This document shows, in pieces, positions 9,958-58,088 of a stretch of 64,000 nt of DNA (positions are counted from its first letter, which is position 1; each line of letters begins with the position of its first letter). The translations under genes were made by a program, and so were the position numbers. The notes beneath the pieces are model-generated. The model ran no database searches. It had not been told where the DNA came from and was given only the letters and a program-made list of their open reading frames with translations. Origin of the DNA: Vibrio crassostreae 9ZC13 (GTDB lineage Bacteria > Pseudomonadota > Gammaproteobacteria > Enterobacterales > Vibrionaceae); the NCBI RefSeq assembly GCF_000272045.2, contig NZ_AJYZ02000019.1, positions 1,872,704-1,936,703 on the forward strand, given 5' to 3'.

Positions 9958-10041
9958 TTCACTGATTAACAAGCTAACTTCTGAGTAGCAAGACGAGTCA
10001 CAGAATCATCCTCCCCGATTCATGTGACAGCAAAGAACAAA

Positions 10042-12875: not shown

Positions 12876-13505
12876 ATGGCACCAAGAAGTACAACCAAAG
12901 ACAAAATCTTAGATGTGGCTGAAGGCTTATTTGCTGAGCACGGTTTTAATGACACCTCTTTACGTACGATTACGAGTAAAGCGAATGTCAACTTAGCTTC
13001 AGTGAACTATCACTTTGGCGATAAGAAGACTCTGGTTCGTGCGGTACTCAATCGTTACTTAGAAGCATTTATGCCAGCACTGCAAGATGCATTAGTGAAC
13101 TTAAACTTGAACGAAACGTATTCTATGAGTGACGTGTTTGAGTCGTTGAGACAGCCACTAAGAGCACTTAATGATGTTAGGCCAAATGGTACAAGCCGAT
13201 TCATGTTACTTATCGGCAGAGGCTATACGGATGTGCAAGGACACTTGCGTTGGTTCATTACTACTCGCTACAGCGAAGTACTTTCTTTGTTTACGACATC
13301 TGTAATGAAGGCGAATCCGAACCTCACTCAAGAACAGTTATTTTGGCGATTACACTTCACCCTAGGGACTTGTGTATTCACCATGGCATCAAGTCAGGCT
13401 CTGGTAGAAATTGCAGAGAATGACTATGACAGAAAGATAGATGCTAAGGCAGTGGTCGATATTCTTATTCCATATTTAGCCGCAGGCATGTCAGCAGAAG
13501 AATAA
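12876..13505 (+). CDS. psrA: TetR-family fatty-acid-responsive regulator PsrA
   Basis: This 209-residue regulator has an N-terminal helix-turn-helix (residues about 8-55) with the PsrA-like ITSKANVNLASVNYHFGDKK recognition region. The C-terminal part is the ligand domain; PsrA proteins bind long-chain fatty acids or acyl-CoA and control beta-oxidation. It lies 55 bases upstream of fadE in the same direction, a pairing known from vibrios and Shewanella. ATG 12876 is preferred over GTG 12867 because PsrA proteins begin shortly before the helix-turn-helix and GAG sits at proper distance. A FadR operator and a PsrA-type palindrome precede it. Confidence 0.82.
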   Translation: MAPRSTTKDKILDVAEGLFAEHGFNDTSLRTITSKANVNLASVNYHFGDKKTLVRAVLNRYLEAFMPALQDALVNLNLNETYSMSDVFESLRQPLRALNDVRPNGTSRFMLLIGRGYTDVQGHLRWFITTRYSEVLSLFTTSVMKANPNLTQEQLFWRLHFTLGTCVFTMASSQALVEIAENDYDRKIDAKAVVDILIPYLAAGMSAEE

Positions 13506-13560
13506 AACAATAAAAAGCGAAACATTCACAACCAATATAGTGAACAAAAGGATCTGAACT

Positions 13561-15843
13561 ATGAGCTCTCTAAGACAAAAATGGGTAAGTGACCCAGCTT
13601 TTAAACTCTTTAAAAAAGTACTACCACCACTATCTAGCACCGAGAAAGAAGCGATGGAAGCGGGTAGCGTGTGGTGGGACGGAGAGCTGTTTTCTGGTAA
13701 ACCAGATTTCACTAAGCTGCATCAATACCCAAAACCTCAGCTGACATCAGAAGAGCAATCATTCATGGATAATGAGCTTGAAACCTTGCTCGCTATGCTT
13801 GATGACCACCAAATTGTAAAAGAAGATCGAGACCTTCCTGAAGAGGTGTGGAACTTCTTACGCAAAGAGCGTTTCTTTTCGCTAATTATTGCGAAAGAGT
13901 ATGGCGGTCGTGAATTCTCAGCACACGCTAACTCAACTATCGTAACTAAGATTGCGACTCGCAGTATCAGTACTGCGGTTTCAGTAATGGTTCCAAACTC
14001 TCTTGGTCCTGGTGAGCTGCTGTCTCACTACGGCACTCAAGACCAAAAAGACTACTGGCTACCTCGTCTTGCTGACGGTACAGATATCCCATGTTTCGCA
14101 CTAACAGGCCCAGAAGCGGGTTCTGATGCGGGTGGTATCCCTGATGTCGGTACTGTGTGCATGGGCATGCACGAAGGTAAAGAGACGCTAGGTATCAAGC
14201 TTAACTGGAACAAACGCTACATTACACTAGCACCAGTGGCGACGGTACTTGGTCTGGCTTTCAAACTGCACGATCCAGAAAAGCTACTGGGTGACAAAGA
14301 AGACATTGGCATCACTTGTGCGCTAATCCCGGCTGACCACGAAGGTGTTGTGATTGGTGAGCGTCATGACCCACTTGGTCTTGCGTTTATGAATGGTCCA
14401 ACACGCGGTCACGATGTATTTATTCCTATGGAATGGTTAATCGGTGGTGCCGATTACGCAGGTAAAGGCTGGCGTATGCTGGTGGAATGTCTGTCTGCAG
14501 GTCGTGGTATCTCATTACCCGCACTTGGCACGGCGATGGGCCACCTAACGGCGAAAACGACCGGCGCATACGCTTATGTTCGTAAGCAGTTCGGTATGTC
14601 GATTGGTAAGTTTGAAGGAGTTGCAGAGAGTTTAGGTCGTATTGGTGGCTTAACGTATCTACTAGAAGCGACTCGTACACTAACAACTACTTCACTCGAT
14701 ATGAAAGAGAAGCCGGGTATCGTTACGGCTATCGCGAAATATCACATGACAGAAATGGCGCGTACTATCCTGAATGATTCAATGGATATCCACTCTGGTC
14801 GTGCAATTCAAGATGGTCCAATGAACTACTTAGCTGCGCCTTACCTAGGTATTCCAGTTGCTATCACAGTAGAAGGTGCGAACATCTTAACTCGCAACCT
14901 GATGATCTTCGGTCAAGGTGCGACACGTTGTCACCCATACGTGCTAAGCGAAATGGAAGCGGCAGCAAACCCAGATGAGAAGCAAGGTGCGAAGGATTTC
15001 GATAACTTGTTGTTCAAGCATATCTCTCACGCAACTAAGAACACGTTTGGTGCGTTCGGTGCGGCATTGACAGGCTCTAAGTTCATTAAAGCGGATATGA
15101 GCGGTCCAACGAAGCCTTACTACCAAGACTTAACTCGCTTGAGCCGTGCGCTTGCAGTGAGTGCGGATTTCGCAATGCTTACACTAGGTGGCGAACTGAA
15201 ACGTAAAGAGCTTATCTCTGCACGTCTAGGTGATGGTCTAAGTTACCTATACATGGCGTCTGCAGCGCTTAAGAAGTATGAAGATGAAGGTCGTCAACAA
15301 GCTGACCTAGACTACGTACACTACGCGGTTCAACACTGTTTCCATAACGCGGCTAAATCGCTACAAGAAGCGTACAGAAACTTCCCGAACAAGATGGTAG
15401 GTAAAGTACTTAAAGGTCTAGTTTTCCCTGTCGGTAACCACTTTGAAAAACCAAGTGATAATCTAACGGTACAACTGGCAGAAAGCTTGATGACTCCGGG
15501 TGCACACCGTGAACGTCTAACTCACCTTTGCTACATAGGCAAAGAAGAAGAGGATAGTGTTGGCCTAATGGAGAATGCGTTCAATGCGATGTACAGCATC
15601 AAGCCTCTCGAACGTAAGATGTTCAAAGCAGTGAAAGAGGGCAAAGTGGCTCGTAAAGGTCTATTGCAAGATAAACTTGCTCAAGCACTGGCGGCAGATG
15701 TTCTTACTCAAGACGAAGTTGACCAAATCATTGCAGCAGACAAACTTCGCTACGCAGCGATTCAAGTTGACCACTTCAGTCATGATTACAGTGAAACTTT
15801 GACGCGAAAAGAGTTAAAACCTAAGCTAAATAGCGTTGCTTAG
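13561..15843 (+). CDS. fadE: Acyl-CoA dehydrogenase FadE
   Basis: The 760-residue length, large for the acyl-CoA dehydrogenase superfamily, fits the gammaproteobacterial FadE type (E. coli about 814 residues). The conserved core is visible: FALTGPEAGSDAG, the FAD/substrate region, and TVEGANILTRNLMIFGQGA near the active site. It performs the first step of beta-oxidation, forming trans-2-enoyl-CoA. AAGGA sits 8 bases before the ATG. It forms an operon with psrA and is closed by a terminator. The reductase gene fabV next door handles the related enoyl-ACP step of synthesis. Confidence 0.93.
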   Translation: MSSLRQKWVSDPAFKLFKKVLPPLSSTEKEAMEAGSVWWDGELFSGKPDFTKLHQYPKPQLTSEEQSFMDNELETLLAMLDDHQIVKEDRDLPEEVWNFLRKERFFSLIIAKEYGGREFSAHANSTIVTKIATRSISTAVSVMVPNSLGPGELLSHYGTQDQKDYWLPRLADGTDIPCFALTGPEAGSDAGGIPDVGTVCMGMHEGKETLGIKLNWNKRYITLAPVATVLGLAFKLHDPEKLLGDKEDIGITCALIPADHEGVVIGERHDPLGLAFMNGPTRGHDVFIPMEWLIGGADYAGKGWRMLVECLSAGRGISLPALGTAMGHLTAKTTGAYAYVRKQFGMSIGKFEGVAESLGRIGGLTYLLEATRTLTTTSLDMKEKPGIVTAIAKYHMTEMARTILNDSMDIHSGRAIQDGPMNYLAAPYLGIPVAITVEGANILTRNLMIFGQGATRCHPYVLSEMEAAANPDEKQGAKDFDNLLFKHISHATKNTFGAFGAALTGSKFIKADMSGPTKPYYQDLTRLSRALAVSADFAMLTLGGELKRKELISARLGDGLSYLYMASAALKKYEDEGRQQADLDYVHYAVQHCFHNAAKSLQEAYRNFPNKMVGKVLKGLVFPVGNHFEKPSDNLTVQLAESLMTPGAHRERLTHLCYIGKEEEDSVGLMENAFNAMYSIKPLERKMFKAVKEGKVARKGLLQDKLAQALAADVLTQDEVDQIIAADKLRYAAIQVDHFSHDYSETLTRKELKPKLNSVA

Positions 15844-44943: not shown

Positions 44944-45045
44944 CTATTGTGGAAATTAGGTGCGATCATATGGATAGCAGCAATAGTTGTTGGCGTAAGT
45001 GATAAAATCACCGGCTCACAGAATTTCTCTAGGTAGTACAATTAG

Positions 45046-46449
45046 ATGGCGCGTTATGAAGAGCTTGCAAAGGATATTCGAACTCAGATAGCCAACAATA
45101 CGTGGCGATCCGGAGAGAAGATCCCTTCGGTACGCATGAGTTGTCGAAATTACAACGTCAGCAATAGTACTGTCTTACAAGCCTACCAGTTGCTAGAAAG
45201 CGAAGGGTGGATCATCGCTAAACCTCAGTCGGGCTACTTTGTAGCGCCAAGGCTGGACGGCGTTGACTACGCACAGCCACTCGTTAGTGAAAAGAAAGCC
45301 ATTAATGACCGCTTATTTGATTTCTTGAAGTCGAGTTCAGCCGAAGGTGTGATTCCTTTCGGCTCTGCATTCCCAGATCCCGACCTTTTCCCGTTACCTA
45401 CCTTGACTCGAAACCTTGCCAGCGCGGGTAGGAAGATGACTGGCGCGAGTGTGATAAATAATTTACCACCGGGCAGTGAGTCCTTGAGAAGGCAAATCGC
45501 ACAGCGTTATCTGCAGCAAGGGATCACGGTTAATCATCAAGACATCGTGATTACGTCGGGTGCTATGGAAGCGCTCAACTTGAGCCTGCAAACGGTCACC
45601 AAGTCGGGTGATAACGTCGTGATTGAGTCTCCCGCCTTCTATGGTGCTCTGCAGGCTGTCGAGAGGCTCGGGCTTAACCCTATCGAAGTGGACGTTTGCC
45701 CAATCAATGGGTTGAATATAGAGCAGTTTGAAAACGCGCTACAAAACCAAGATGTTAAAGCGTGTTGGCTGATGACGACTTTTCAAAACCCAACGGGAAC
45801 CAGTTTGTCGGAACAGGCAAAGCGCCGTGTGGTAGAGATTGCAGAACAGCATGGAACCTACATTATTGAAGATGACGTGTATGGCGATCTTTATTACGAA
45901 GGGCATAAGCCGAAGCCACTAAAGGCCTTCGATAAGACCGATTCCGTCTTGCTTTGTGGGTCGTATTCAAAAAGTTTGTGTCCTGGTTATCGAGTAGGGT
46001 GGGTTGTGAACACGCGTTTTAACGACGCGATTCAAAAGTTACAGCTTCTTTCTACGTTATCGAGTAGCGCTCCTGTTCAACTTGGTGTCGCTCATTTCTT
46101 AACGCATGAAAGCTACGACAATCACCTTCGTAAACTGCGTAAAAACCTTGTCGTCAGGAAAGAGCGATTTATCGATGTCATTAAGCAGTACTTTCCGCAT
46201 TCAATAGAGATTGAAGAGCCGGCTGGTGGTTACTTGATATGGATTCGCTTTTCTGAAAAATTCGACAGCCAACAGTTTCATCAACTGGCTATCGAACAAG
46301 GTATTAGCGTTGCATCTGGCGATCTGTTTAGTGAGCATGGCAGAGTGGATAACGCGATACGATTGAACTTCTCTTATGAACTGACAGAAGAGAAAGAACA
46401 GGCGCTCATCTGGCTTGGCAAACTGGCACATCAACTTACGCACTCGTAA
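45046..46449 (+). CDS. MocR-type GntR regulator with aminotransferase domain
   Basis: The 467-residue protein joins an N-terminal GntR winged helix (residues about 1-70, GEKIPSVRMSCRNYNVSNST) to a fold type I aminotransferase domain. The PLP lysine is in CGSYSKSLCPGYRVGW, with NPTGTSLS and DDVYGDLYYE also typical. MocR proteins bind PLP or aminoacyl-PLP and often control a divergent neighbour; here the neighbour is a 99-residue unknown. A CRP site is present in the shared spacer. Confidence 0.9.
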   Translation: MARYEELAKDIRTQIANNTWRSGEKIPSVRMSCRNYNVSNSTVLQAYQLLESEGWIIAKPQSGYFVAPRLDGVDYAQPLVSEKKAINDRLFDFLKSSSAEGVIPFGSAFPDPDLFPLPTLTRNLASAGRKMTGASVINNLPPGSESLRRQIAQRYLQQGITVNHQDIVITSGAMEALNLSLQTVTKSGDNVVIESPAFYGALQAVERLGLNPIEVDVCPINGLNIEQFENALQNQDVKACWLMTTFQNPTGTSLSEQAKRRVVEIAEQHGTYIIEDDVYGDLYYEGHKPKPLKAFDKTDSVLLCGSYSKSLCPGYRVGWVVNTRFNDAIQKLQLLSTLSSSAPVQLGVAHFLTHESYDNHLRKLRKNLVVRKERFIDVIKQYFPHSIEIEEPAGGYLIWIRFSEKFDSQQFHQLAIEQGISVASGDLFSEHGRVDNAIRLNFSYELTEEKEQALIWLGKLAHQLTHS

Positions 46450-46576
46450 AACCTTAAGTCCCTCATAAAAAAGACAATCATTCCAACTGTACGGGTTGTT
46501 TGTGGGGTAACTGTACGCCTAATTGACCAAAGAGTTGTGATTCAATAACGGTAGACCAAATATTGGAGATACCGTT

Positions 46577-46783
46577 ATGTTGAAAATGACTATGGGAAAT
46601 GAAGTTAAGCTGATTATTGTCGCTATTGTGTGTGCGCTTCTGCTTATTCTCGGCCACGTACTGCTGGCAAAAGCATTCGCTGATATGGCGTGGGCGGAAT
46701 ACACCACTGCCGCGATCCCATTCGTTATGATGGCAATTTGCGGTCTTGCAATAAAATACGCTATCGACCAAGATGTGGATTAG
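46577..46783 (+). CDS. Small two-helix inner-membrane protein
   Basis: The 68-residue protein has two membrane segments (about 11-33 and 43-62) and an acidic tail (DQDVD). GGAG lies 8 bases before the ATG, and a strong bidirectional terminator follows 70 bases after the stop, which supports a real gene. No family recognised. Confidence 0.6.
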   Translation: MLKMTMGNEVKLIIVAIVCALLLILGHVLLAKAFADMAWAEYTTAAIPFVMMAICGLAIKYAIDQDVD

Positions 46784-46850
46784 CTGTTGAAATAATGAGT
46801 CTCAGATAGTGGCACGCAGAAGCATCTGGACTCGTTTTATTCCGAACATA

Positions 46851-46880
46851 AAAAAACCTCCGCAAGTGCGGAGGTTTTTG
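46851..46880. terminator. Bidirectional terminator between the small membrane protein and asnS
   Basis: AAACCTCCGC pairs with GCGGAGGTTT across AAGT, with As before and Ts after. Confidence 0.9.
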
Positions 46881-46916
46881 TTTGTTCTTAACTTTTAATA
46901 TCGAATAGGTTTCGAA

Positions 46917-48317
46917 TTAGAAGTTTGCAGAGCGTGGTGTACGTGGGAATGGAATCACGTCACGAACGTTACCCATACCTGTTACGTAAGATACTAGACG
47001 CTCGAAACCAAGACCGAAACCAGCGTGTGGCACTGTACCGTATTTACGTAGGTCGCGGTACCAGCTCATGTGCTCAGGGTCGATACCCATAGCAATCATA
47101 CGCTCGTCTAGAATGTCTAGACGCTCTTCACGTTGTGCACCACCGATGATTTCACCGATGCCTGGTGCAAGTACGTCCATTGCTGCAACTGTTTTGCCGT
47201 CGTCGTTTAAGCGCATGTAGAAAGCTTTGATGTCTTTCGGGTAGTTCTTAACAATAACAGGTGCTTTGAAGTGCTCTTCAGCTAGGTAACGCTCATGCTC
47301 AGAAGACATGTCGATGCCCCACTCAACGTCAAACTCAAATTTCTTACCAGAGTCTAGTAGGATTTGGATTGCGTCAGTGTAGTCAACTTGTGCGAAATCA
47401 GCGTCTACGAATTGCTCTAGACGAGTAATTGCTTGCTTGTCGATGCGAGAAGCGAAGAATTCAAGGTCGTCGCGGCGCTCTTCAAGAACAGCAGCGAAAA
47501 CGTACTTAAGCATGTCTTCAGCCAGTTTCGCTACATCGTTAAGGTCTGCAAACGCAACTTCAGGCTCAACCATCCAGAACTCAGCTAGGTGGCGGCTTGT
47601 GTTTGAGTTTTCAGCACGGAACGTAGGACCGAACGTGTAAACCTTGCTTAGTGCACAAGCATAAGCTTCAGCATTAAGTTGGCCAGATACTGTTAGGAAC
47701 GTCTCTTTACCGAAAAAATCTTCGTTGAAGTCTACGTCGCCTTTTTCAGTGCGTGGTAGGTTTTCCATGTCTAGCGTAGAAACACGGAACATTTCACCAG
47801 CGCCTTCTGCATCAGATGCAGTAATAAGCGGAGCAGAAGTCCAGAAGAAGCCTTGCTCGTGGTAAAAACGGTGAATCGCTTGAGATAGACAGTTACGTAC
47901 ACGTGCTACTGCGCCAATCACGTTTGTACGTGGACGTAGGTGAGCAACTTCACGAAGGTATTCGATAGAGTGACGTGTCTTAGCCATTGGGTAAGTGTCA
48001 GCGTCTTCAACCCAGCCTACAACTTTAACGTCAGTTGCTGCTAGTTCGAAGTCTTGACCTTTCGCAGGAGACTCAACAATCTTACCCGTTACTTCAACAG
48101 AGCAGCCAGTTGTTAGCTTTAATACTTCGTTTTCGTAATTATTAAGATTATTAGGAACCACGGCCTGAATCGGGTCGAAACAAGAGCCGTCATAAATGGC
48201 AAGGAAAGAGATTCCAGCTTTGGAATCACGACGTGAACGGATCCAGCCGCGAACAGTTACTTCACTGTCTACCGCTAGCTTGCCGCCAAGTACGTCTGTT
48301 ACAGGCGCGTAAGTCAT
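46917..48317 (-). CDS. asnS: Asparaginyl-tRNA synthetase
   Basis: The 466-residue class IIb synthetase has an N-terminal OB-fold anticodon-binding domain ([19 protein letters not shown]) and the class II catalytic motifs, including [20 protein letters not shown] (motif 2) and [10 protein letters not shown] (motif 3). It charges tRNA-Asn. ATG 48317 gives the family N-terminus MTYAPV; the upstream ATG adds six residues. A terminator follows. The 558 bases upstream hold no gene that I trust. Confidence 0.96.
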
Positions 48318-48875
48318 GTTGATTTCATTCTCCATTGAGGGACAAATTCAACTCAAAGTCTCTGGCATTGCTGCAAATAAATATACATTTGCACAATAAT
48401 TAGCCGAAACATTAAGTTGTATAAACTTTTTAAATCGATTGAACATATTACCTGTCATACCGACAGCTTCAACCTTTATTCTTGCTTGGTGAAAGAAATA
48501 TTGTGTCTACTGACGATAAATAGGTTTGAGGGTGTGTTTTTTGTTCGATCTTAGCGTCAGCCTTACCTTTCACCCTATGTGAGCTGCTGAACGAGCATGG
48601 CGTAATCGAAACCTTTGTTTTCAATAATGGGAGTGTGATTGTGTTGAGACTCACTCTACATTGGCGCGGATTCAGTCATTTTGGACTTGATCACCTTCTT
48701 AATTTCCCACTAAAGCAACAAGAGGAGTTTAATATCTACGTGTTAATTACGCCGCCTTAACCCCTGCATTCTCTCTACACCCGCACTTTTCGAGCGCTCG
48801 CTCATTCAAGAAAAACAGTCGATCAAATTATGTCTCAACAAGGCAGGACTGGCTGTACAAGTAAAAGAGAATTAC
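48318..48875. other. Long spacer between asnS and the SulP gene
   Basis: This 558-base stretch holds both divergent promoters. A plus-strand frame is open without a standard start from about 48540 to 48760 (ending YVLITPP), perhaps a decayed gene. No convincing RNA element or terminator is visible. Confidence 0.35.
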
Positions 48876-50366
48876 ATGCTTAATTATTTAAAAAAACACT
48901 GGTTATCAAACGTTAAAGGAGATTCATTATCTAGGATTGTGGTTGCACTCGCATTGATCCCTGAAGCCATCGCATTTTCAATTATTGCAGGCGTTGACCC
49001 TAAAGTAGGGCTCTATGCCTCGTTCTGTATTTGTGTCGTCACTGCTTTGGTTGGCAGTCGTCCGGGAATGATTTCCGGTGCAACAGGCGCTATGGCGCTA
49101 CTAATGGTCACTTTAGTGAGAGAGCACGGACTAGAATATCTACTCGCCGCTTCATTTCTAGCTGGCGTCATTCAGATCGCAGCTGGGTATCTCAAGCTTG
49201 GTAACCTGATGAATTTCGTTTCCAAATCGGTGATTACTGGATTTGTTAACGCGCTCGCCATTCTAATTTTCATGGCTCAACTTCCTGAATTAATCAACTT
49301 CCCGTCAAGCGTTTACGTGTTAGTCGCTTTGGGTTTGGCGATCATTTATCTGCTTCCTTATTTTCCCAAGTTTGGTCGTGCAATACCTTCCCCACTGGTC
49401 GCGATTGTTGCTCTGACAATCATTAGTTTGCTCTTCGGCTTAGATGTGAGAACGATTGGCGATATGGGCAAGCTTCCCGATTCACTGCCTGTGTTCTTGA
49501 TTCCTAATATTCCATTCACGTTTGAGACGCTTGCAACCATCCTGCCATATTCGATTGCTCTGTCTCTGGTTGGCTTGTTGGAATCCTTGATGACAGCGAC
49601 CATAGTCGATGACCTGACTGATACTGAAAGCAATAAAAACAATGAGTGTAAAGGGCAGGGCGTTGCGAACATCGTGGCTTCCCTTTTTGGTGGAATGGCG
49701 GGCTGCGCAATGATCGGTCAGTCGATCATTAACATCAAATCAGGTGGCTTAACCCGATTGTCCAGCATGATCGCTGGGGTGGTTTTGTTGCTAATGGTGG
49801 TGTTTGTTTCTGATTGGTTGAAGCTGATACCGATGGCCGCTTTAGTGTCTGTGATGATCATGGTTTCTATCGGCACATTCTCATGGCGTTCCATTGTTGA
49901 GCTTAAAGATCACACACTGCCAACCAATGTAACCATGCTAGCAACCGTGGCGGTGGTGGTGTTTACTCATAATTTAGCAATAGGTGTTGCGGTTGGCGTG
50001 GTGCTGTCGGCTCTGTTTTATGCACATGCCAGCAAATCCATGGTGTTTATATCCGATGAAGTCGTGACAAACGAAATGCACTCCATTCACCGAGTAAAAG
50101 GCCATGTCTTCTTTGCTTCGTCAGATGCGTTTGTCGACTTATTTGATTATGACAACGCGACCTCTTTAGTGACCATCGATATATCGGATGCGTCATTCTT
50201 AGATAATACCTCGGTCGAGGCGCTTGATAAGGTTGTGTTCAAGTTCCGTAAAAAAGGGGCTTACGTTGAAGTGTCAGGAATGGATAGCGTGAGTGCGAAC
50301 CTGATAGTCAAACACGCGATGTATCACAAGCATAAAGACTTAACCGCGGTTTCCATTACGCACTAA
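48876..50366 (+). CDS. SulP-family anion transporter with STAS domain
   Basis: The 496-residue protein has 10-12 membrane segments with the SulP signature ALIPEAIAFSIIAGVDPKVGLYA and a STAS regulatory domain at about 400-496 (VTIDISDASFLDNTSVEALDKV). Members carry sulfate, bicarbonate or dicarboxylates, some with sodium; the substrate here is unknown. No carbonic anhydrase gene is adjacent. Terminator follows. Confidence 0.88.
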   Translation: MLNYLKKHWLSNVKGDSLSRIVVALALIPEAIAFSIIAGVDPKVGLYASFCICVVTALVGSRPGMISGATGAMALLMVTLVREHGLEYLLAASFLAGVIQIAAGYLKLGNLMNFVSKSVITGFVNALAILIFMAQLPELINFPSSVYVLVALGLAIIYLLPYFPKFGRAIPSPLVAIVALTIISLLFGLDVRTIGDMGKLPDSLPVFLIPNIPFTFETLATILPYSIALSLVGLLESLMTATIVDDLTDTESNKNNECKGQGVANIVASLFGGMAGCAMIGQSIINIKSGGLTRLSSMIAGVVLLLMVVFVSDWLKLIPMAALVSVMIMVSIGTFSWRSIVELKDHTLPTNVTMLATVAVVVFTHNLAIGVAVGVVLSALFYAHASKSMVFISDEVVTNEMHSIHRVKGHVFFASSDAFVDLFDYDNATSLVTIDISDASFLDNTSVEALDKVVFKFRKKGAYVEVSGMDSVSANLIVKHAMYHKHKDLTAVSITH

Positions 50367-50424
50367 TCTTGGTTTACGGTTCTTTTAAAGCCTGAAAGCC
50401 TGAATTAGACGTTGCTATGAAGAT

Positions 50425-50451
50425 AAAGCGCTCATTGTTGAGCGCTTTTTT
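50425..50451 (+). terminator. Terminator of the SulP gene
   Basis: AAAGCGCTCA pairs with TGAGCGCTTT across TTGT and ends in Ts; also lies at the end of the convergent chemoreceptor gene. Confidence 0.88.
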
Positions 50452-50460
50452 GTTGGCGAT

Positions 50461-52083
50461 CTATGACTTCTTCTTTGTACTCGACAAAGTAAACTGATTA
50501 ATCAGCGATTCAAGATGATCAGATAGCTCTTCTAAGTCATTGCTGATGTTGCGAGTTTCAGCCGCGGATTGCGATGTGTTGTTGGCGTGAGAGGTGATGG
50601 TTTCAACCTTTTGTTGAACATCTTGAGTCGCTTGTGTGGTGGATTGCGTTTGCTGCTGAATATTCTGTGCGTGAGCCAGCACCTGTTTCATCTCTTCGAC
50701 CACACCATTCATTTCAATTGAAAGTGCGTCGATATCGGTTGAGCTTTGATGGGCTTGTTCGCAAACGCGATCGGCAGAAGTCAGCGACTCTTCGCTGCCT
50801 TGCTGGAACTGATGAATGATTGACTCAATACTGCCTGTTGCTTCAGCGGTTCGTGATGCAAGATGGCGAACTTCATCAGCCACCACCGCAAACCCACGAC
50901 CTTGTTCTCCCGCACGAGCCGCTTCAATTGCTGCATTCAAGGCCAGAAGATTGGTTTGGTCAGCAATGCCACGAATCACACTCAATATTGAAGAGACCTC
51001 TCCGGTTTGCTCATTGAGTGTCAGTATTTTGTGTTTCACTTCTTCTATGCTGCTAACGAGGTTTTTTATCTCACTGCTTGCTTCGTGTGCTTGGTTGGCA
51101 CTCTTACACGCCACATCAGCGGTGTGATTGATAAGCTCTGAAGCTGTTAAAGTCGCTTGTTCTACATTGACTTGCTGTGCCTGTATTCCTTCGACATTGT
51201 GTTGCACTTCTGCGGTTTCGCTTTGCTGGTCGCTGGCGGCTTGCTCGGTAATTTGCGCGACACTAGTCAGTTGGTTGGCAGACGCATTTAACTTGTGCGA
51301 GGTGCTTTGTACCTTTTCTAAGCTGTCAGATACGGTTCCCATGAACGAGTTGATGGAGTTAGCCAGCGTGCCAATCTCATCCTTGCTTTGTTCCGGCAGG
51401 CGAGTGGATAGGTTTTTATCGTTGCTGACTTGGGTCATAAAGCGAGAAGTCTGTTGCAGCGGGCGCACGATAATCTTACGAATTAATCCCATCGTAAGGA
51501 CAAATCCGGCAAACGAGATCACTGCCATAATGCCAATAGCAGCCATGGTTTGAGTGTTAATCAGCGAGTTAACATGGTTAAGGTTATATTCGAGACGAAT
51601 CGCACCCAAGACTTCACCTTCTGGTGCCATATGACAGGCGACACAATTGGTTCCTCGGTAATCTTCACTCGACTTCATTGGCAGAGCAATAACCAAGCCT
51701 TTGCCCCAATCAGCAGAAAAAGGTTCGATAACGGTTTCGCCCGCTAGCGCTCGTTTATCAATATCGTCAACCGGTGTTTGGTTGTCATTACCTGGGCCAT
51801 ATAACTTGCTGACAGCGTCGGCGCGTAAAACACGAACGTCTTCAATGCCTTCTTGAGCCAGTGCTTTCTGACGAAGGGTCTCTTTTTGTGCCATGGTGCC
51901 GGTGAGCATCATCATATTGAGGCTATCGAAGTAGTTACTTGCTTTGTCGTGAAGCTGCTCACTTAACACTGAGTTTACAAGTTGCTTTTGTTGCGAATAT
52001 TGGAAATAGGTCGATATTGCCAGCAAAAAGGTGAACACGATGGCGAGGGCCACTAGGATTTTAAAGGTGATTGTTGAGCGCAT
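50461..52083 (-). CDS. Methyl-accepting chemotaxis protein with periplasmic c-type haem motif
   Basis: The 540-residue receptor has membrane segments at about 8-28 and 177-200. The periplasmic part of some 148 residues carries [11 protein letters not shown], a CxxCH haem c attachment site with Cys147, Cys150 and His151. A HAMP domain (about 200-255) and a full MCP signalling domain follow, with the conserved tip [20 protein letters not shown]. Such haem-bearing sensor domains occur in Geobacter chemoreceptors and respond to redox state or gases. No C-terminal CheR-binding pentapeptide is seen. Single gene. Confidence 0.9.
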
Positions 52084-52187
52084 AAGGTGTTTGTTTTTAT
52101 TAATTATAATGACGCAAATACTGTACTAGTAAGAATTCCTACCACCTATGGGGTATAACGAATTGTGTGACCACACTCCGGTTGTGG

Positions 52188-52442
52188 TTATGTTTCTGTG
52201 ATGTAGCGAGTTTGTGTCGTGTCTGATGTTGAAATGGAACGCGCTTCAAGCTCCTCGCTGTTCTTAAAACAGACTGTTGTTTTGGGAAAATTGAAGTGCA
52301 GCATCGAGTTTTGATTGTGCTGATAATTAGAAAAGCCTAGGTTGTTAATTAGCTCGATGTATTTGTCCGCTTGTCTTTTATCAATAAAGACTATTGTTTT
52401 AGACGACTTAGTGGTCGATTTATATCCAAATGGTTGTTTTGT
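52188..52442 (-). pseudogene. Start-less open frame, possible gene remnant
   Basis: A minus-strand frame of 84 codons is open without ATG, GTG or TTG near its head. The translation looks protein-like (KTIVFIDKRQADKYIELINN, later LHFNFPKTTVCFKNSEELEA). A TGA lies just upstream in frame. It could be a decayed gene, or chance; I do not recognise it. Confidence 0.25.
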
Positions 52443-52508
52443 TCAATTTAATAGCAAAAATTGTGGTTATAGCGTTGTGTTTCGAGGCTCATTCGATAAG
52501 ATGAAAAG

Positions 52509-52547
52509 ACCTCTATGATAGAGGTAGGGCAGCAACGGATACGCTGC
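52509..52547 (+). promoter_or_regulatory. Two hairpins ahead of the aromatic-rich leader ORF
   Basis: ACCTCTA (52509-52515) pairs with TAGAGGT (52519-52525) across TGA, and GCAGC (52529-52533) pairs with GCTGC (52543-52547). They would lie near the 5' end of the leader transcript. Confidence 0.35.
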
Positions 52548-52557
52548 TTCAAATACT

Positions 52558-52782
52558 ATGGAATGTGACTTATTGGACACATACATGAAATTCAAGATTA
52601 CATCACCGATTATTGAACCTACGGAAGGTTCACCACATCAGTTAATGCTTACTCACGCTTCTCGTTTTACCTCTTTTAAGACAAGCTCCCCTTTGAACGC
52701 CCTGTTCGACAACGTCTCTGCACGCTTCTTTACCGCTTATCGCTCCTATTGTTATTCGTTTTATAACTTTATTTCTATCTGA
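52558..52782 (+). CDS. Candidate aromatic-rich leader peptide upstream of an aromatic amino acid transporter
   Basis: This 74-codon ORF (internal starts at 52585 and 52645) ends 69 bases before the transporter gene. The last 18 residues, from FFTAY to NFISI, contain four Phe and four Tyr. The frame lacks a strong Shine-Dalgarno. Placement and composition fit a regulatory leader peptide that senses charged tRNA-Phe or tRNA-Tyr, or stalls ribosomes. No clear terminator/antiterminator pair is seen between its stop and the transporter. Confidence 0.4.
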   Translation: MECDLLDTYMKFKITSPIIEPTEGSPHQLMLTHASRFTSFKTSSPLNALFDNVSARFFTAYRSYCYSFYNFISI

Positions 52783-52851
52783 ACTCCTTTGTCATCCGCT
52801 CGATGAACGAAGACTCACATCTATAAAAACTAAACAAATAAGTTAAAAACA

Positions 52852-54006
52852 ATGAATATTAAAATGATGGGTAGCTCCCTAATTATCGCTGGTACCGCTC
52901 TCGGTGCTGGTATGCTTGCGATCCCAATGGTATTAGCTCAATTCGGATTGCTTTACGGCACACTGCTTATGGTACTGATCTGCTTCGGTACGACTTACGC
53001 AGCATTACTACTTCTAGAAGCGACCATCAAAGCGGGTGGCGGTCTAGGATTAAACTCTATTGCCCGAAAAACCTTGGGTAAACAAGGTCAGTTGCTTACC
53101 AACGGCTTGCTATACGCGTTGTTGATTTGCCTATTAATGGCTTACATTCTGGGCGCAGGTGACTTGCTGAGTAAGTTACTGTCTAACTTTGGCGTCGAAA
53201 TTACCGCGACTACCAGCCAAACCGTGTTTACCTTGCTTGCTGGCGCAGTAGTCGCAAGTGGTACTGGTGTGATTGATAAGCTCAATCGAGCATTGTTCTT
53301 CGTGATGCTTGCTAGTTTGTTTGCCACCATGGCGTTCTTAGCGCCGAGCATGACTCAAGAAAACTTGATGCAGGTAACCAGCCATGACCACGTTGATCTA
53401 ATCAAAACCAGTGCCATCCTGTTTACGAGCTTTGGCTTTATGGTGGTGATTCCAACCTTGGTTTCTTACAACCACGAAGCGACAGATAAACAGCTGCGTA
53501 ACATGGTGATCATCGGTTCTCTGATCCCATTAGTGTGTTACTTGTGTTGGTTGTTTGCGGTAGTGGGCAACTTGAGTGAAGATCAATTCAGAAGCTTTGA
53601 GAACGTATCAGATTTGATGGCGGCGTTTGAGGCTCAGTCTCCTTGGGTGGGTAACGTTCTGTCTACCTTCACGGGCTTGGCGTTGTTGACCTCTTTCTTT
53701 GGTGTGGCGATGGCGTTGTTCAACCAGAACAAAGACATGTTCAACCAAAATACAGCGGTAACGTACTGCATTAGCTTTATCTTGCCGTTGGCTGGTTCAT
53801 TGCTTGCGGCAGACAAGTTCCTACAAGTACTGAATTACGCAGGTATCATCTTGGTGTTCCTAGCGGTGTTTGTTCCTCTGGTTATGGTCCACAAACAGCG
53901 TTTCATGAAAGTTGCTGATGACCGATACCGAGCAGAAGGTGGCAGCGCAATGATGTTGTTCTCACTGCTGTTTGGTTGCTTCCTGCTTATCTCACAAGTG
54001 ATCTAG
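52852..54006 (+). CDS. Aromatic amino acid transporter (TyrP/Mtr family)
   Basis: The 384-residue inner-membrane protein has about 11 membrane segments and the HAAAP family start IAGTALGAGMLAIPMVLAQFG, close to E. coli TyrP and Mtr. It imports tyrosine, tryptophan or both with protons. The aromatic-rich ORF upstream would favour tyrosine or phenylalanine regulation. The ATG lacks a strong Shine-Dalgarno (A-rich leader). No TyrR box was found by eye. Confidence 0.85.
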   Translation: MNIKMMGSSLIIAGTALGAGMLAIPMVLAQFGLLYGTLLMVLICFGTTYAALLLLEATIKAGGGLGLNSIARKTLGKQGQLLTNGLLYALLICLLMAYILGAGDLLSKLLSNFGVEITATTSQTVFTLLAGAVVASGTGVIDKLNRALFFVMLASLFATMAFLAPSMTQENLMQVTSHDHVDLIKTSAILFTSFGFMVVIPTLVSYNHEATDKQLRNMVIIGSLIPLVCYLCWLFAVVGNLSEDQFRSFENVSDLMAAFEAQSPWVGNVLSTFTGLALLTSFFGVAMALFNQNKDMFNQNTAVTYCISFILPLAGSLLAADKFLQVLNYAGIILVFLAVFVPLVMVHKQRFMKVADDRYRAEGGSAMMLFSLLFGCFLLISQVI

Positions 54007-54019
54007 TTCTTTGGTCCAT

Positions 54020-54050
54020 TATCTAAGATTCGAATCGAGCATCTTAGATA
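54020..54050. repeat. Inverted repeat after the aromatic transporter gene
   Basis: TATCTAAGAT pairs perfectly with ATCTTAGATA across 11 bases containing TCGAATCGA. It precedes the real terminator by 25 bases and may stabilise the 3' end. Confidence 0.5.
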
Positions 54051-54072
54051 TAAGTGGCCGGAATTCAGATAC

Positions 54073-54102
54073 AAAAAAGGAACGCATCGGCGTTCCTTTT
54101 TA
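54073..54102. terminator. Bidirectional terminator between the aromatic transporter and sdaB
   Basis: AAAAGGAACGC pairs with GCGTTCCTTTT across ATCG, with As before and Ts after. Confidence 0.92.
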
Positions 54103-54139
54103 TTATCTGCTGATTAAAAACAGATTGATTCAAAGGCTA

Positions 54140-55501
54140 TCAACAAACAACCTTAACAGCCAAACCACCTTGAGAAGTCTCACGGTATTTAGCGTTCATG
54201 TCTTTACCTGTTTCTAGCATTGTTTCGATAACTTTATCTAGAGAAACAGTAGGAGCAGAAGAGCGACGAAGCGCCATACGAGTCGAGTTGATTGCTTTAA
54301 CTGCAGCAATACCGTTACGCTCGATACATGGTACTTGTACTTGGCCAGCAACTGGGTCACATGTTAGACCTAGGTTGTGCTCCATGCCGATTTCTGCAGC
54401 CATACATACTTGCTCAGGGCTACCACCCATAAGCTCAGCAAGACCAGCAGCAGCCATAGAGCATGCCACACCAACTTCACCCTGACAGCCAACTTCAGCA
54501 CCAGAGATTGAAGCGTTACGCTTGTAAAGACCACCGATCGCGCCAGAAGCTGCGAAGTAACGGATGTAATCTTTCTCTGTCACTGTTTGGATGAACTTAT
54601 CGTAGTAAGCCAATACAGCAGGGATGATGCCACATGCGCCGTTTGTTGGTGCCGTTACTACACGGCCGCCAGCTGCATTTTCTTCGTTTACTGCGAAAGC
54701 AAACATGTTTACCCAGTCAACAACCGACATTGGATCATTGGTTGTTTTTTCTGAAGTCATTAGCTGTTGGCGAAGTGCTGCTGCACGGCGAGGAACACGT
54801 AGTGGACCAGGCAGGATACCTTCAGTATTCATACCGCGATCCATACACTCACGCATAGTTTTCCAGATGTTAGCGAAGTAAGTGCGAGACTCTTCGTCTG
54901 AGTGGAACGCTGCTTGGTTTTTCATAACCAGTGTACTGATAGAAAGACCGCTTTCTTTGCACTGATTAACCAGCTCTTCAGCTGTTGTGAATTCGTAAGG
55001 TGCTTTGATTGGGTTTTCTTCTTCTTTGCCGAAGTTCTCTTCGTCAACGATGAAACCGCCACCAATTGAGTAGTACGTTTTTGAGTATGCAACTTCGTCA
55101 CCAACCCATGCATGAATGCTCATGCCGTTCTCGTGTAGAGAAAGGTTGCTAGTGTGGAAGTTCATACCGCCATCGCGTGGGAACGATACTGTATGACAGT
55201 GCATGCCAACAGGAAGGCGCTCAGTTTCTTCTACGCGAGCAATGAAGCCAGCAATAGAATCGATATCAACACGCTCAGGAGTATTGCCAGCAAGACCCAT
55301 GATGATTGCGATATCTGTGTGGTGACCTTTCCCTGTCAGTGATAGTGATCCATATACGTCCACGGTGATTTTAGTGATGTCGCGCAATTTTCCCATTGAA
55401 CGTAGGTCATCAATAAATTCTTTACCCGCTTTCATTGGTCCAACTGTGTGTGAGCTCGATGGACCAACACCGATTTTATAGATATCAAATACACTAATCA
55501 T
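54140..55501 (-). CDS. sdaB: L-serine ammonia-lyase (iron-sulfur type)
   Basis: The 453-residue enzyme converts L-serine to pyruvate and ammonia. The beta (1-150) and alpha domains are fused as in single-chain types. Expected [4Fe-4S] ligands Cys339, Cys381 and Cys392 are present, and the protein ends in a Cys (VKVVC), matching the C-terminal cysteine that occupies the cluster in the Legionella enzyme. MISVFDIYKIG resembles E. coli SdaB slightly more than SdaA. ATG 55501 has GAGG at 8 bases. It follows sdaC, with hairpins between. Confidence 0.93.
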   Translation of the reverse strand: MISVFDIYKIGVGPSSSHTVGPMKAGKEFIDDLRSMGKLRDITKITVDVYGSLSLTGKGHHTDIAIIMGLAGNTPERVDIDSIAGFIARVEETERLPVGMHCHTVSFPRDGGMNFHTSNLSLHENGMSIHAWVGDEVAYSKTYYSIGGGFIVDEENFGKEEENPIKAPYEFTTAEELVNQCKESGLSISTLVMKNQAAFHSDEESRTYFANIWKTMRECMDRGMNTEGILPGPLRVPRRAAALRQQLMTSEKTTNDPMSVVDWVNMFAFAVNEENAAGGRVVTAPTNGACGIIPAVLAYYDKFIQTVTEKDYIRYFAASGAIGGLYKRNASISGAEVGCQGEVGVACSMAAAGLAELMGGSPEQVCMAAEIGMEHNLGLTCDPVAGQVQVPCIERNGIAAVKAINSTRMALRRSSAPTVSLDKVIETMLETGKDMNAKYRETSQGGLAVKVVC

Positions 55502-55520
55502 AGCGATTACCTCAAAAAGA

Positions 55521-55548
55521 GAGCCTCCCAAGGGGAGTCGGGAGGCTC
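55521..55548 (-). promoter_or_regulatory. Hairpin with U-tract just before sdaB
   Basis: GAGCCTCCC pairs with GGGAGGCTC across 10 bases; on the minus strand TCTTTTTG follows, then the sdaB ribosome-binding site. It resembles a terminator inside the operon and could attenuate sdaB. Confidence 0.6.
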
Positions 55549-55574
55549 ATTTATTATCATTATATTTTTTGTCT

Positions 55575-55623
55575 AATCTCGCGATATAAGATGGATGCCA
55601 TCTTATAAAAAGGGCTTGAGATT
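55575..55623 (-). repeat. Long hairpin after sdaC
   Basis: TATAAGATGG pairs perfectly with CCATCTTATA across ATG (55585-55607), and an outer pair TAATCTC with GAGATTA closes it; the outer arm reaches the sdaC stop codon. No U-tract follows, so a stabilising or processing role is likelier than termination. Confidence 0.55.
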
Positions 55624-56875
55624 AAAGAGCGCCGTAGATTACAGAACTAATAGCCGCTAGACCACATAAAGCTGTAAAGATTTGCACAGGTGCTGAAGTT
55701 TTGTACTTAGCCATAGCTGGTACTTTCTGCATCGCAAACACAGGCATTAGGAACAGGATAGCTGCAATCATTGGAGCACCCATTGTTTCAATCATACCTA
55801 GGATACTTGGGTTAACTACCGCAACAATCCAAGTTGTAACAACGATGAACGCTAGAGATGCTTTTTCAATCTTAGAGATTGAAGAACCAGAGCGAGACTT
55901 GATTAGACCAACAAGACCTTCGTGAGCACCTAGGAAGTGACCGAAGTAGCTAGAAGTAATCGCTGCGAACGCTACTAGAGGACCCATGTAAGAGATAAGT
56001 GGAGACTCATGTACGTTTGCTAGGTAAGAAAGAACAGAGATGTTCTGTGCTTGTGCTGTTGCTAGTTGCTCTGGAGATAGAGAAAGAACTACAGAGAATA
56101 CGAAGAACATTACAAAACCCATCAGCATCATTGCTGCGCCGCCAGTGATCGCGTCAGTTTTCTTAACTGCGTTTTCACCGTATACACGACGTTGCTCTTT
56201 AGAGAACTGTGAAATGATTGGGCTGTGGTTGAAAGAGAACACGATGATTGGAATTGCAAGCCAGATAACAGAAGGCATTGTTGACCATTCAGGTGTTACT
56301 TCCATCATTGAAGTGTTCCAATCTGGAACTAGGTAGAAAGACAGTGCTAGTAGGATGAATACTAGTGGGTAAACCATTGCTGAAGTCGCTTTCAGCATCA
56401 GATCTTTACCGAATACAACACCTGTAGTCATAGCAAGGATAAGTGCACCAGAAAGAAGAGGACGAGGAATAGATTCCATACCCATTTGGTTTACTAGGAA
56501 AGAATCAACAGTGTTTGTGATACCAACACCGTAAATCAGAACGATTGGGTAGATAGCGAAAAAGTAAGCGAAAGTAATAAGGTTTGCGCCAGTCTTACCG
56601 AAGTGTTCTTCTACTGTATCTGTAATGTCAGCTTCAGGGTTTTTTGCAGACAGTACGAAACGAGCTAGAGATTTGTGTGCGAACCAAGTCATTGGTGCCG
56701 CAATTAGAGCTAGGATAACTAATGGCCAAAAACCACCCGCACCAGCTTTGATTGGAAGGAATAGTACGCCAGCACCAACTGCTGTACCGAATAGTGATAA
56801 ACACCAGGTAAAATCTTTATAGTTAAACTTGCTTGAATCTTTAACGGCATTTGCCGAAGAAGTTGTTGTGTTCAT
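55622..56875 (-). CDS. sdaC: Serine transporter SdaC (HAAAP family)
   Basis: The 417-residue protein has about 11 membrane segments and the HAAAP/STP start LSLFGTAVGAGVLFLPIKAG, close to E. coli SdaC. It imports serine with protons. It precedes sdaB on the same strand by 120 bases, as in enterics, so uptake and deamination are probably co-regulated, with hairpins setting the ratio. GAG lies upstream of the ATG. Confidence 0.92.
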   Translation of the reverse strand: MNTTTSSANAVKDSSKFNYKDFTWCLSLFGTAVGAGVLFLPIKAGAGGFWPLVILALIAAPMTWFAHKSLARFVLSAKNPEADITDTVEEHFGKTGANLITFAYFFAIYPIVLIYGVGITNTVDSFLVNQMGMESIPRPLLSGALILAMTTGVVFGKDLMLKATSAMVYPLVFILLALSFYLVPDWNTSMMEVTPEWSTMPSVIWLAIPIIVFSFNHSPIISQFSKEQRRVYGENAVKKTDAITGGAAMMLMGFVMFFVFSVVLSLSPEQLATAQAQNISVLSYLANVHESPLISYMGPLVAFAAITSSYFGHFLGAHEGLVGLIKSRSGSSISKIEKASLAFIVVTTWIVAVVNPSILGMIETMGAPMIAAILFLMPVFAMQKVPAMAKYKTSAPVQIFTALCGLAAISSVIYGAL

Positions 56876-57184
56876 GTTAAATTACTCATTTTTTGGGAAC
56901 AGGAAATAAGTCGGGGCTAATTCTGCAGAATTTTCTTCTGCAAAAAATAGATCTAAATCATGTAATGAAACGGCGTGTCACATGATATGCGAAAAACGGA
57001 TTTTTGATCACGAAAATAGCGTGCCACAGGTGATTTATGTTTATGCTTGGTATTAGTTTTATTTATGCGAAAGGCGGGGTTGTATAGATTTATACCAGGG
57101 AAACGTTTGCGTAAAATTGCATTAATAAATCTGTTCCATAGAAAGTCTGGATTTTGTTAACAGAGATTAAACAAAACGTAGTTG
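56876..57184. other. Upstream region of sdaC
   Basis: The 309-base AT-rich spacer lies between sdaC and the 3' end of the Nudix gene on the same strand, so it should hold the sdaC promoter. No good CRP core or other named operator was seen. Confidence 0.35.
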
Positions 57185-57784
57185 CTATGTAATTCGTTGC
57201 ACTACATGTTGCTGCAATGATTGGATGATTTGCGCCGTAACGCCCCAAATTAGGTGCTCTTGGAAGGGCATCGCAAAAACACGATGCTTGATTTGTTTAA
57301 AGTTAACAGTGTGGCTGTGTAACTTGGCTTGGTCTAAAACATAGGTAGCGGGCACCTCAAAAATTGAGGCAACTTCGTTCTCATCAATGATGGCTTTATA
57401 GTCAGGATCGACCATGGCAACAATCGGCGTCACAGAAAATTTACTAATAGTACTCAATGCGGGTAATTGCCCAACAATTTTAACTTGATCCGATCGAATT
57501 CCCACCTCCTCATGGAGCTCTCTGAGTGCAGTGAATTGCATAGAAGGGTCAGAAAGTTCGTGTTTACCACCAGGAAAGCTGACTTGGCCGGGGTGATGCT
57601 TTAAATGAGCCGCTCTTTTAGTAAAAATTACATGTAAACCATCTTCTCTTTCAACTAAACCTACCACCACTGCCGCTTTACGTAATTGCTCGCCACTGAT
57701 GTGCGAAACACGCTCTACTGACTCTGGGTGATAGCCAACGGTAGGGTTAAGTTGGAATTGCTGAAGGAAGTTTTCTTTATTCAT
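57185..57784 (-). CDS. nudL: Nudix hydrolase, coenzyme A pyrophosphatase type (NudL-like)
   Basis: The 199-residue protein has the Nudix box of the CoA-hydrolase subgroup: FPGGKHELSD...ALRELHEEVGI, with the one-residue longer spacing also found in E. coli NudL, and the upstream LKHHPGQVSFPGG (UPF0035) signature. It splits CoA and related dinucleotides. No membrane segment. Monocistronic. Confidence 0.85.
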   Translation of the reverse strand: MNKENFLQQFQLNPTVGYHPESVERVSHISGEQLRKAAVVVGLVEREDGLHVIFTKRAAHLKHHPGQVSFPGGKHELSDPSMQFTALRELHEEVGIRSDQVKIVGQLPALSTISKFSVTPIVAMVDPDYKAIIDENEVASIFEVPATYVLDQAKLHSHTVNFKQIKHRVFAMPFQEHLIWGVTAQIIQSLQQHVVQRIT

Positions 57785-58088
57785 ATCAAGCCAATATATT
57801 GATTATTATGATTTTAAGTATAGACATAACCGTGGGCTGATTACCAATTTTGAGTGTGTCTTCATTTACTTACTTTTAGTTTAGCGATTAACTAGGCGTA
57901 ATTAAGGGCCACGTAGTGACTGACATCCTTAAAATGCTGGTTTTTGCTATATTCAATATGTACACATCTGCGAGTAAGCGTTACCCATGTCATAAAATTG
58001 GGTTACGAAGCGTAGATTTTTCGTTTAAGAATTTGATAACAATGACTTAGTGAACCATTCTAAAAAGAAATAGAAGAAAAGGTATGAG
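57785..58088. other. Divergent spacer between nudL and the H-NOX operon
   Basis: This 304-base AT-rich region must hold both promoters. An imperfect inverted repeat, CGTTACCC with GGGTTACG (about 57979-58010), lies about 80 bases before the H-NOX gene. Nothing else recognised. Confidence 0.35.

Follow-up and report, generated by a model that had tools for sequence, protein, structure and literature searches.

A probable c-type haem Cache chemoreceptor at a conserved genome position in Vibrio

The stretch of DNA analysed here (the window, 64,000 nucleotides from Vibrio crassostreae 9ZC13) carries on its minus strand a chemoreceptor gene whose product is probably a c-haem Cache sensor, with His/Met ligation of the haem and with switching that would follow oxidation or the binding of NO (or CO). 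Sensors of this type are already known, from Geobacter and from a 2026 preprint, and what is new is a vibrio member at a conserved genome position.

According to the accessible parts of the respective papers, chemoreceptors with c-type haem are known from Geobacter (PMC8396549; PMC3460858) and have been inferred in Anaeromyxobacter (PMC3831638). In the available main text of the 2026 preprint, Vibrio is named once, in the title of a reference (PMC12889525). No characterised vibrio receptor of the c-haem kind was found in the open-licence literature among the matches listed. The family was reportedly placed by Londer, in 2006, "in Geobacteraceae and other bacteria", and that account may already list vibrios.

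Gene and protein architecture

The receptor, a methyl-accepting chemotaxis protein (MCP) of 540 aa, is encoded by an open frame at 50461..52083 on the minus strand, as are all parts of the protein listed below; the plus strand of the same interval contains many stops. Kyte-Doolittle hydropathy places a first membrane helix at residues 5-27 (52003..52071, the maximum of the profile) and a second at residues 182-201 (51481..51540). These are followed by a HAMP domain at residues 200-249 (51337..51486; PF00672, E 5.5e-9) and an MCP signalling domain at residues 323-498 (50590..51117; PF00015, E 1.4e-41), both above their Pfam cut-offs. Given membrane helices near 5-27 and 182-201, the sequence CVACH (residues 147-151, 51631..51645), the predicted site of haem c attachment with His151 as predicted proximal ligand, falls within an inter-helix segment of about 155 residues. 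An earlier note had described a chemoreceptor at this place with CVACH between two membrane segments, and the open frame, hydropathy and Pfam matches confirm that description.

The periplasmic part, residues 28-181 (51541..52002), is assigned as a Cache-type sensor domain from an AlphaFold model and fold searches, which returned Cache folds and GSU0935. Pfam gives nothing over cut-off in this segment, and such proteins are therefore probably labelled only as MCPs. All NCBIfam matches stayed below cut-off; they were to MCP models and, beginning at residue ~148, to YfiN and YfiR-associated kinase models.

Conservation of the haem motif and of a methionine

Related loci were collected as L001-L141, with L111 removed as a PF11845 match; some of the remaining 140 repeat one gene, as do L001 and L112, both of which are the window. 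Eighty of them came from a genome scan with peptide patterns free of CxxCH and Met59, as the best 80 of 256 relatives. All 140 loci (window included), corresponding to 128 distinct domain sequences, carry CxxCH, and Cys147, Cys150, His151 and Met59 are each invariant in the 128. The motif is likewise present in 20 of 20 distant relatives, drawn mainly from the weaker family matches in a sample of 369 genomes of the class; of these relatives, the 17 that align at position 59 all have Met there, and the other three have a gap. The earlier note had made the haem reading depend on conservation of CxxCH in orthologues, and with the motif kept throughout both sets the reading survives.

The invariance of Met59 (51907..51909), a feature absent from the earlier note, marks this residue as the predicted distal haem ligand, and its place in the alignment matches Met60 of GSU0582. 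The codons flanking it in the window receptor were checked in the DNA. In a set of 36 sequences picked to be diverse, one of them the window's, the residues that never vary include Y51, N56, M59, G62, K73, R87, G96, G98, D106, G115 and P135, together with C147, C150, H151 and G160. No further Cys or His position reaches 30% of these 36 sequences.

Predicted fold of the sensor domain

Structure prediction had been proposed in the earlier note as a check, and it yielded a Cache fold in which CxxCH follows strand 3 and precedes strand 4. Residues 28-180 were modelled with AlphaFold as a monomer from a 38-sequence alignment; the five models ranged in pLDDT from 72.8 to 41.3, and the best has a mean pLDDT of 72.8 and a pTM of 0.70. 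Local pLDDT lies at 45-62 over the first 40 residues, a stretch that includes the N-terminal helix with Met59, and at 67-78 around CxxCH. From the N-terminus, the model runs through two helices, the first strand, a pair of short helices, strands two and three and, at CxxCH, a further short helix; a fourth strand then leads to the beginning of the second membrane helix. On this model, which is of moderate confidence, the periplasmic domain is a Cache fold.

A Foldseek search with the model ranked WalK first (E 5.5e-5), with GSU0935 (3b42) at ranks 5-6 (E ~4e-4) but superposing poorly (TM 0.40-0.41 by query, rmsd 13-14). VIA-align gave Z 10.7 for WalK (rmsd 4.2, 125 residues), Z 10.0 for DcuS (rmsd 4.0, 121 residues) and Z 9.8 for CitA (rmsd 3.5, 119 residues). 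GSU0935 was absent among the 50 entries listed by VIA, which we do not read as exclusion.

Homology to known haem sensors

Searched alone against the PDB with phmmer, the window protein retrieved no haem sensor, its one match being a LytS construct at E 0.69, and a vibrio-rich profile of 20 members did not list 3B47. A profile of 28 diverse members had 3B47 (GSU0582) as its best match, at E 0.0046 over 136 profile positions and with CxxCH aligned on CxxCH; the same search placed multihaem cytochromes below it, starting at E 0.05, with their matches lying mainly around CxxCH. The invariant Met of the family falls on chain residue 26 of 3B47 and the aligned His on chain residue 109. Counted from the alignment, chain residue 26 is Met60 if that His is His143, a number taken from the accessible text of PMC8396549.

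Profile-profile comparisons with HHalign, which are pairwise values and not database E-values, place this likeness beyond the motif. Against 19 of 20 PF21563 loci (L177 left out) the family scores 98.3% over 132 columns, and still 96.7% with the haem segment deleted on both sides, whereas against 30 PF11845 members the value of 94.9% over 78 columns drops to 2.0% when that segment is taken out. In a plain hmmsearch at E 0.01, the family profile matched 5 of the 20 PF21563 loci and none of the 30 PF11845 loci. These comparisons thus set the family nearer to PF21563 and the GSU0582-like sensors than to DUF3365/Tll0287 (PF11845). The likeness to Geobacter receptors drawn in the earlier note is accordingly borne out by homology over the whole domain (the 3B47 profile match, HHalign and Foldseek).

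The window protein matches neither PF21563 nor PF11845 at E up to 10 and reaches neither curated cut-off (27 and 24.1 bits, respectively); in its genome PF21563 finds nothing at E up to 10, and PF11845 only a weak match elsewhere (E 0.55). At E up to 10, PF11845 matches 11 of the 28 family members (best 3.6e-4) and 1 of 20 in a smaller set; PF21563 matches 6 of the 28 (best E 0.0019). An unrelated-looking model, YajR_YAM, matches 10 of the 28 (best E 2.4e-4) and 9 of the 20, which we take as chance, and since it scores about as well as PF11845 and PF21563, single-protein Pfam scores carry little weight here. Membership of DUF3365/Tll0287, our first guess, was set aside, as the profile match hinges on the haem segment and the cut-off is missed. 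With matches to both models weak or absent, the family is filed under neither. The window genome holds one receptor of its own family and no PF11845 or PF21563 match over cut-off; in the wider phylum, a single genome may hold up to 10 PF11845 matches (L142-L171) or 7 PF21563 matches (L174-L193).

Comparison with characterised systems

GSU0582 and GSU0935 of Geobacter sulfurreducens (PDB 3B47, 3B42) share with the window receptor the MCP architecture, two membrane helices, HAMP, a Cache/PAS-like fold (predicted for the window), CxxCH and, in the N-terminal helix, a Met that occupies the Met60 position. GSU0582 is a distant relative, recognised by profile only, and in its alignment with the family it shows two gaps, one of four residues in the FGxG region and one of five immediately ahead of CxxCH. 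The Geobacter pair contain covalent haem that is high-spin when oxidised and low-spin when reduced and form a helix-swapped dimer; the model of the window domain is a monomer. The accessible text of PMC8396549 describes the GSU0935 crystal as a swapped dimer and states that in both proteins the reduced haem is probably bound by Met60, which CO and NO displace and oxidation releases, with water and not Met60 as the sixth ligand in the crystal of oxidised GSU0582.

PF21563 (Mcp40H-20_sensor) resembles the family in whole-domain profile homology, CxxCH and a Met-x-x-Gly motif. The DUF3365/Tll0287-like proteins have, like it, a Cache fold whose strands 3 and 4 are separated by a CxxCH segment, and in these proteins as in the relatives of the family the outputs include MCP and GGDEF, PF11845 having others as well; they differ in that the HHalign similarity depends on the haem segment and in that the family profile matches none of their 30 loci. 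In the available text of the preprint they are named sCache_heme, with CxxCH between strands 3 and 4 and with fusions to MCP, GGDEF and other outputs (PMC12889525). DcrA of Desulfovibrio vulgaris is a c-haem MCP reported, in a cited title, as a sensor of oxygen or redox potential.

Genomic setting and distribution

The receptor gene is flanked by a SulP-type and an amino-acid-type transporter gene, and asnS, sdaA and sdaC lie nearby (all named from their translations). Among the best 80 of 256 relatives, the closest named loci are from Vibrio sp. and V. splendidus, which places the window in Vibrio and probably in its Splendidus group. Within flanks of up to 5 kb in named genomes, asnS is a neighbour in 78 of 80 loci and sdaA in 62 of 80, so that the locus is largely conserved in vibrios. 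The gene order sdaC, sdaA, receptor, asnS is found in the V. mimicus and V. metoecus loci; from this order and the V. cholerae locus numbers of the neighbours, the V. cholerae orthologue is presumably VC1298.

The receptor is common and not universal, occurring in 31 of 61 sampled genomes (its own, 23 of 36 further genomes of the genus, and 7 of 24 from the rest of the order). In the class sample of 369 genomes, 64, spread over 48 of 272 genera, have a family match at E 0.001; this overstates the true number, as some of these matches are short and lie outside the haem site.

Upstream of the gene, a block that is conserved between the window and 14 selected vibrio loci contains the inverted repeat ACCACA-N7-TGTGGT (52166..52192 on the minus strand, part of the block, 83-109 bases 5' of the start codon), while the DNA farther upstream diverges. 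In the same alignment the repeat is imperfect in several species, and the block is a possible regulatory site. FNR- and CRP-like boxes 5' of the receptor gene amounted to three matches, each with two mismatches, and Rfam at gathering score gave no match in positions 45000-58000 of the window.

Five further neighbourhoods (L199-L203), apart from the longer relatives described below, hold receptors of the ~540-residue type. One has two tandem receptors of the window receptor's family (L199:9305-13113), the second of which appears broken into frames of 193 and 379 aa, perhaps through a frameshift or an assembly error. In another, a setting of hydrogenase and cytochrome c (L202:9691-11295 and 12952-14544) hints at a redox link.

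Haem attachment, proposed mechanism and signal

In the mechanism that we propose, haem c would be held covalently by Cys147 and Cys150, with His151 most likely the proximal ligand, as homology and conservation suggest. Met59, in the N-terminal helix, is most likely the distal ligand in the reduced state, given the alignment with GSU0582 and its invariance. By analogy with the Geobacter proteins, oxidation of the haem, or the binding of NO (or CO), would most likely displace Met59. Its release would shift the N-terminal helix relative to the beta-sheet, and this shift may reach the CheA kinase of the flagellar Che system by way of the second membrane helix and HAMP, altering swimming.

CcmE is part of the haem c maturation system. 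It is encoded in the window's own genome and in 56 of the 61 sampled genomes, namely all 31 with the receptor and 25 of the 30 without it (Fisher p 0.024, uncorrected for kinship); the five genomes lacking CcmE all lack the receptor. This co-occurrence is consistent with haem attachment and a weak pointer to it.

If the haem is present, its natural signal could be the redox state of the periplasm or NO, two possibilities that we hold about equally likely and each somewhat short of even; the sequence does not decide between them. A redox signal would report respiratory electron flow or acceptor supply and lead to energy or redox taxis. The redox-linked release of the axial Met, which is the model for GSU0582 and GSU0935 in the accessible text of PMC8396549, speaks for it, as does the L202 relative, which lies ~1.7 kb from the gene for a NiFe-hydrogenase large subunit and adjoins a small cytochrome c gene. 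That neighbourhood is a single one, however, and thus an anecdote, and the neighbours of the window receptor offer no redox clue.

NO has been argued to be the signal of signalling-type sCache_heme fused to output modules, and the available text of the preprint reports that such a protein from P. azotoformans is slow to release NO and does not form a stable complex with O2 (PMC12889525). The binding of NO by GSU0582 and GSU0935 (PMC8396549, accessible text) points the same way. The preprint protein is, however, read as having water at the distal position (PMC12889525, available text), where the present family has an invariant Met59, and the window protein has no PF11845 match, the profile likeness to that family vanishing without the haem segment.

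It appears improbable that the domain carries no haem, with CxxCH serving as a thiol/disulphide switch or metal site and the Cache domain sensing a small molecule. The model does fit ligand-binding Cache domains (WalK, CitA, DcuS) better than it fits GSU0935. His151 and Met59 are nonetheless as invariant as the cysteines, which a disulphide would leave unexplained and which disfavours a disulphide switch; the lack of further conserved Cys or His is evidence against a four-ligand zinc site, and the homology to c-haem sensors extends over the whole domain. That CxxCH is a chance or artefactual motif can be dismissed, as it is carried by every one of the 140 and the 20 relatives fetched.

Relatives with other outputs

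The haem domain also occurs as the input of longer relatives (~650 aa), which in all five neighbourhoods examined (L194-L198) stand in Wsp-type operons. With the receptor near position 10000, the gene order is MCP, CheW, CheR, CheW, CheA, CheB and a REC-GGDEF protein, an arrangement described for wspABCDEFR (PMC5513912, accessible text). Pfam supports the six proteins from MCP to CheB in L194 and the REC-GGDEF protein in all five loci, and the middle genes of L195-L198 were assigned by reading their translations. The Wsp receptor slot is known from surface sensing. A predicted c-haem sensor occupies the WspA slot of these c-di-GMP operons, and no literature on a haem-bearing WspA was found by title or abstract among the matches listed. 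By a simple pattern, a GGDEF motif follows the haem domain in 6 of the 20 distant relatives (L205, L209, L216, L217, L222 and L223).

It can be speculated that these proteins form an unrecognised gammaproteobacterial clade of His/Met c-haem Cache sensors, in which one redox or NO signal is passed to chemotaxis in vibrios, to Wsp c-di-GMP operons and to fused GGDEF domains, a proposal to which we give nearly even chances.

Implications

Through periplasmic haem sensors a cell reads the redox state or NO outside its cytoplasm. If the vibrio receptor carries haem, it would be a defined receptor for asking if NO or redox guides vibrios as they swim, which bears on animal hosts and redox gradients, and the invariant Met59 offers a one-residue handle on how such sensors switch. 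Should the proposal of a wider clade be true, both swimming and biofilm formation throughout the class would answer to a single cue.
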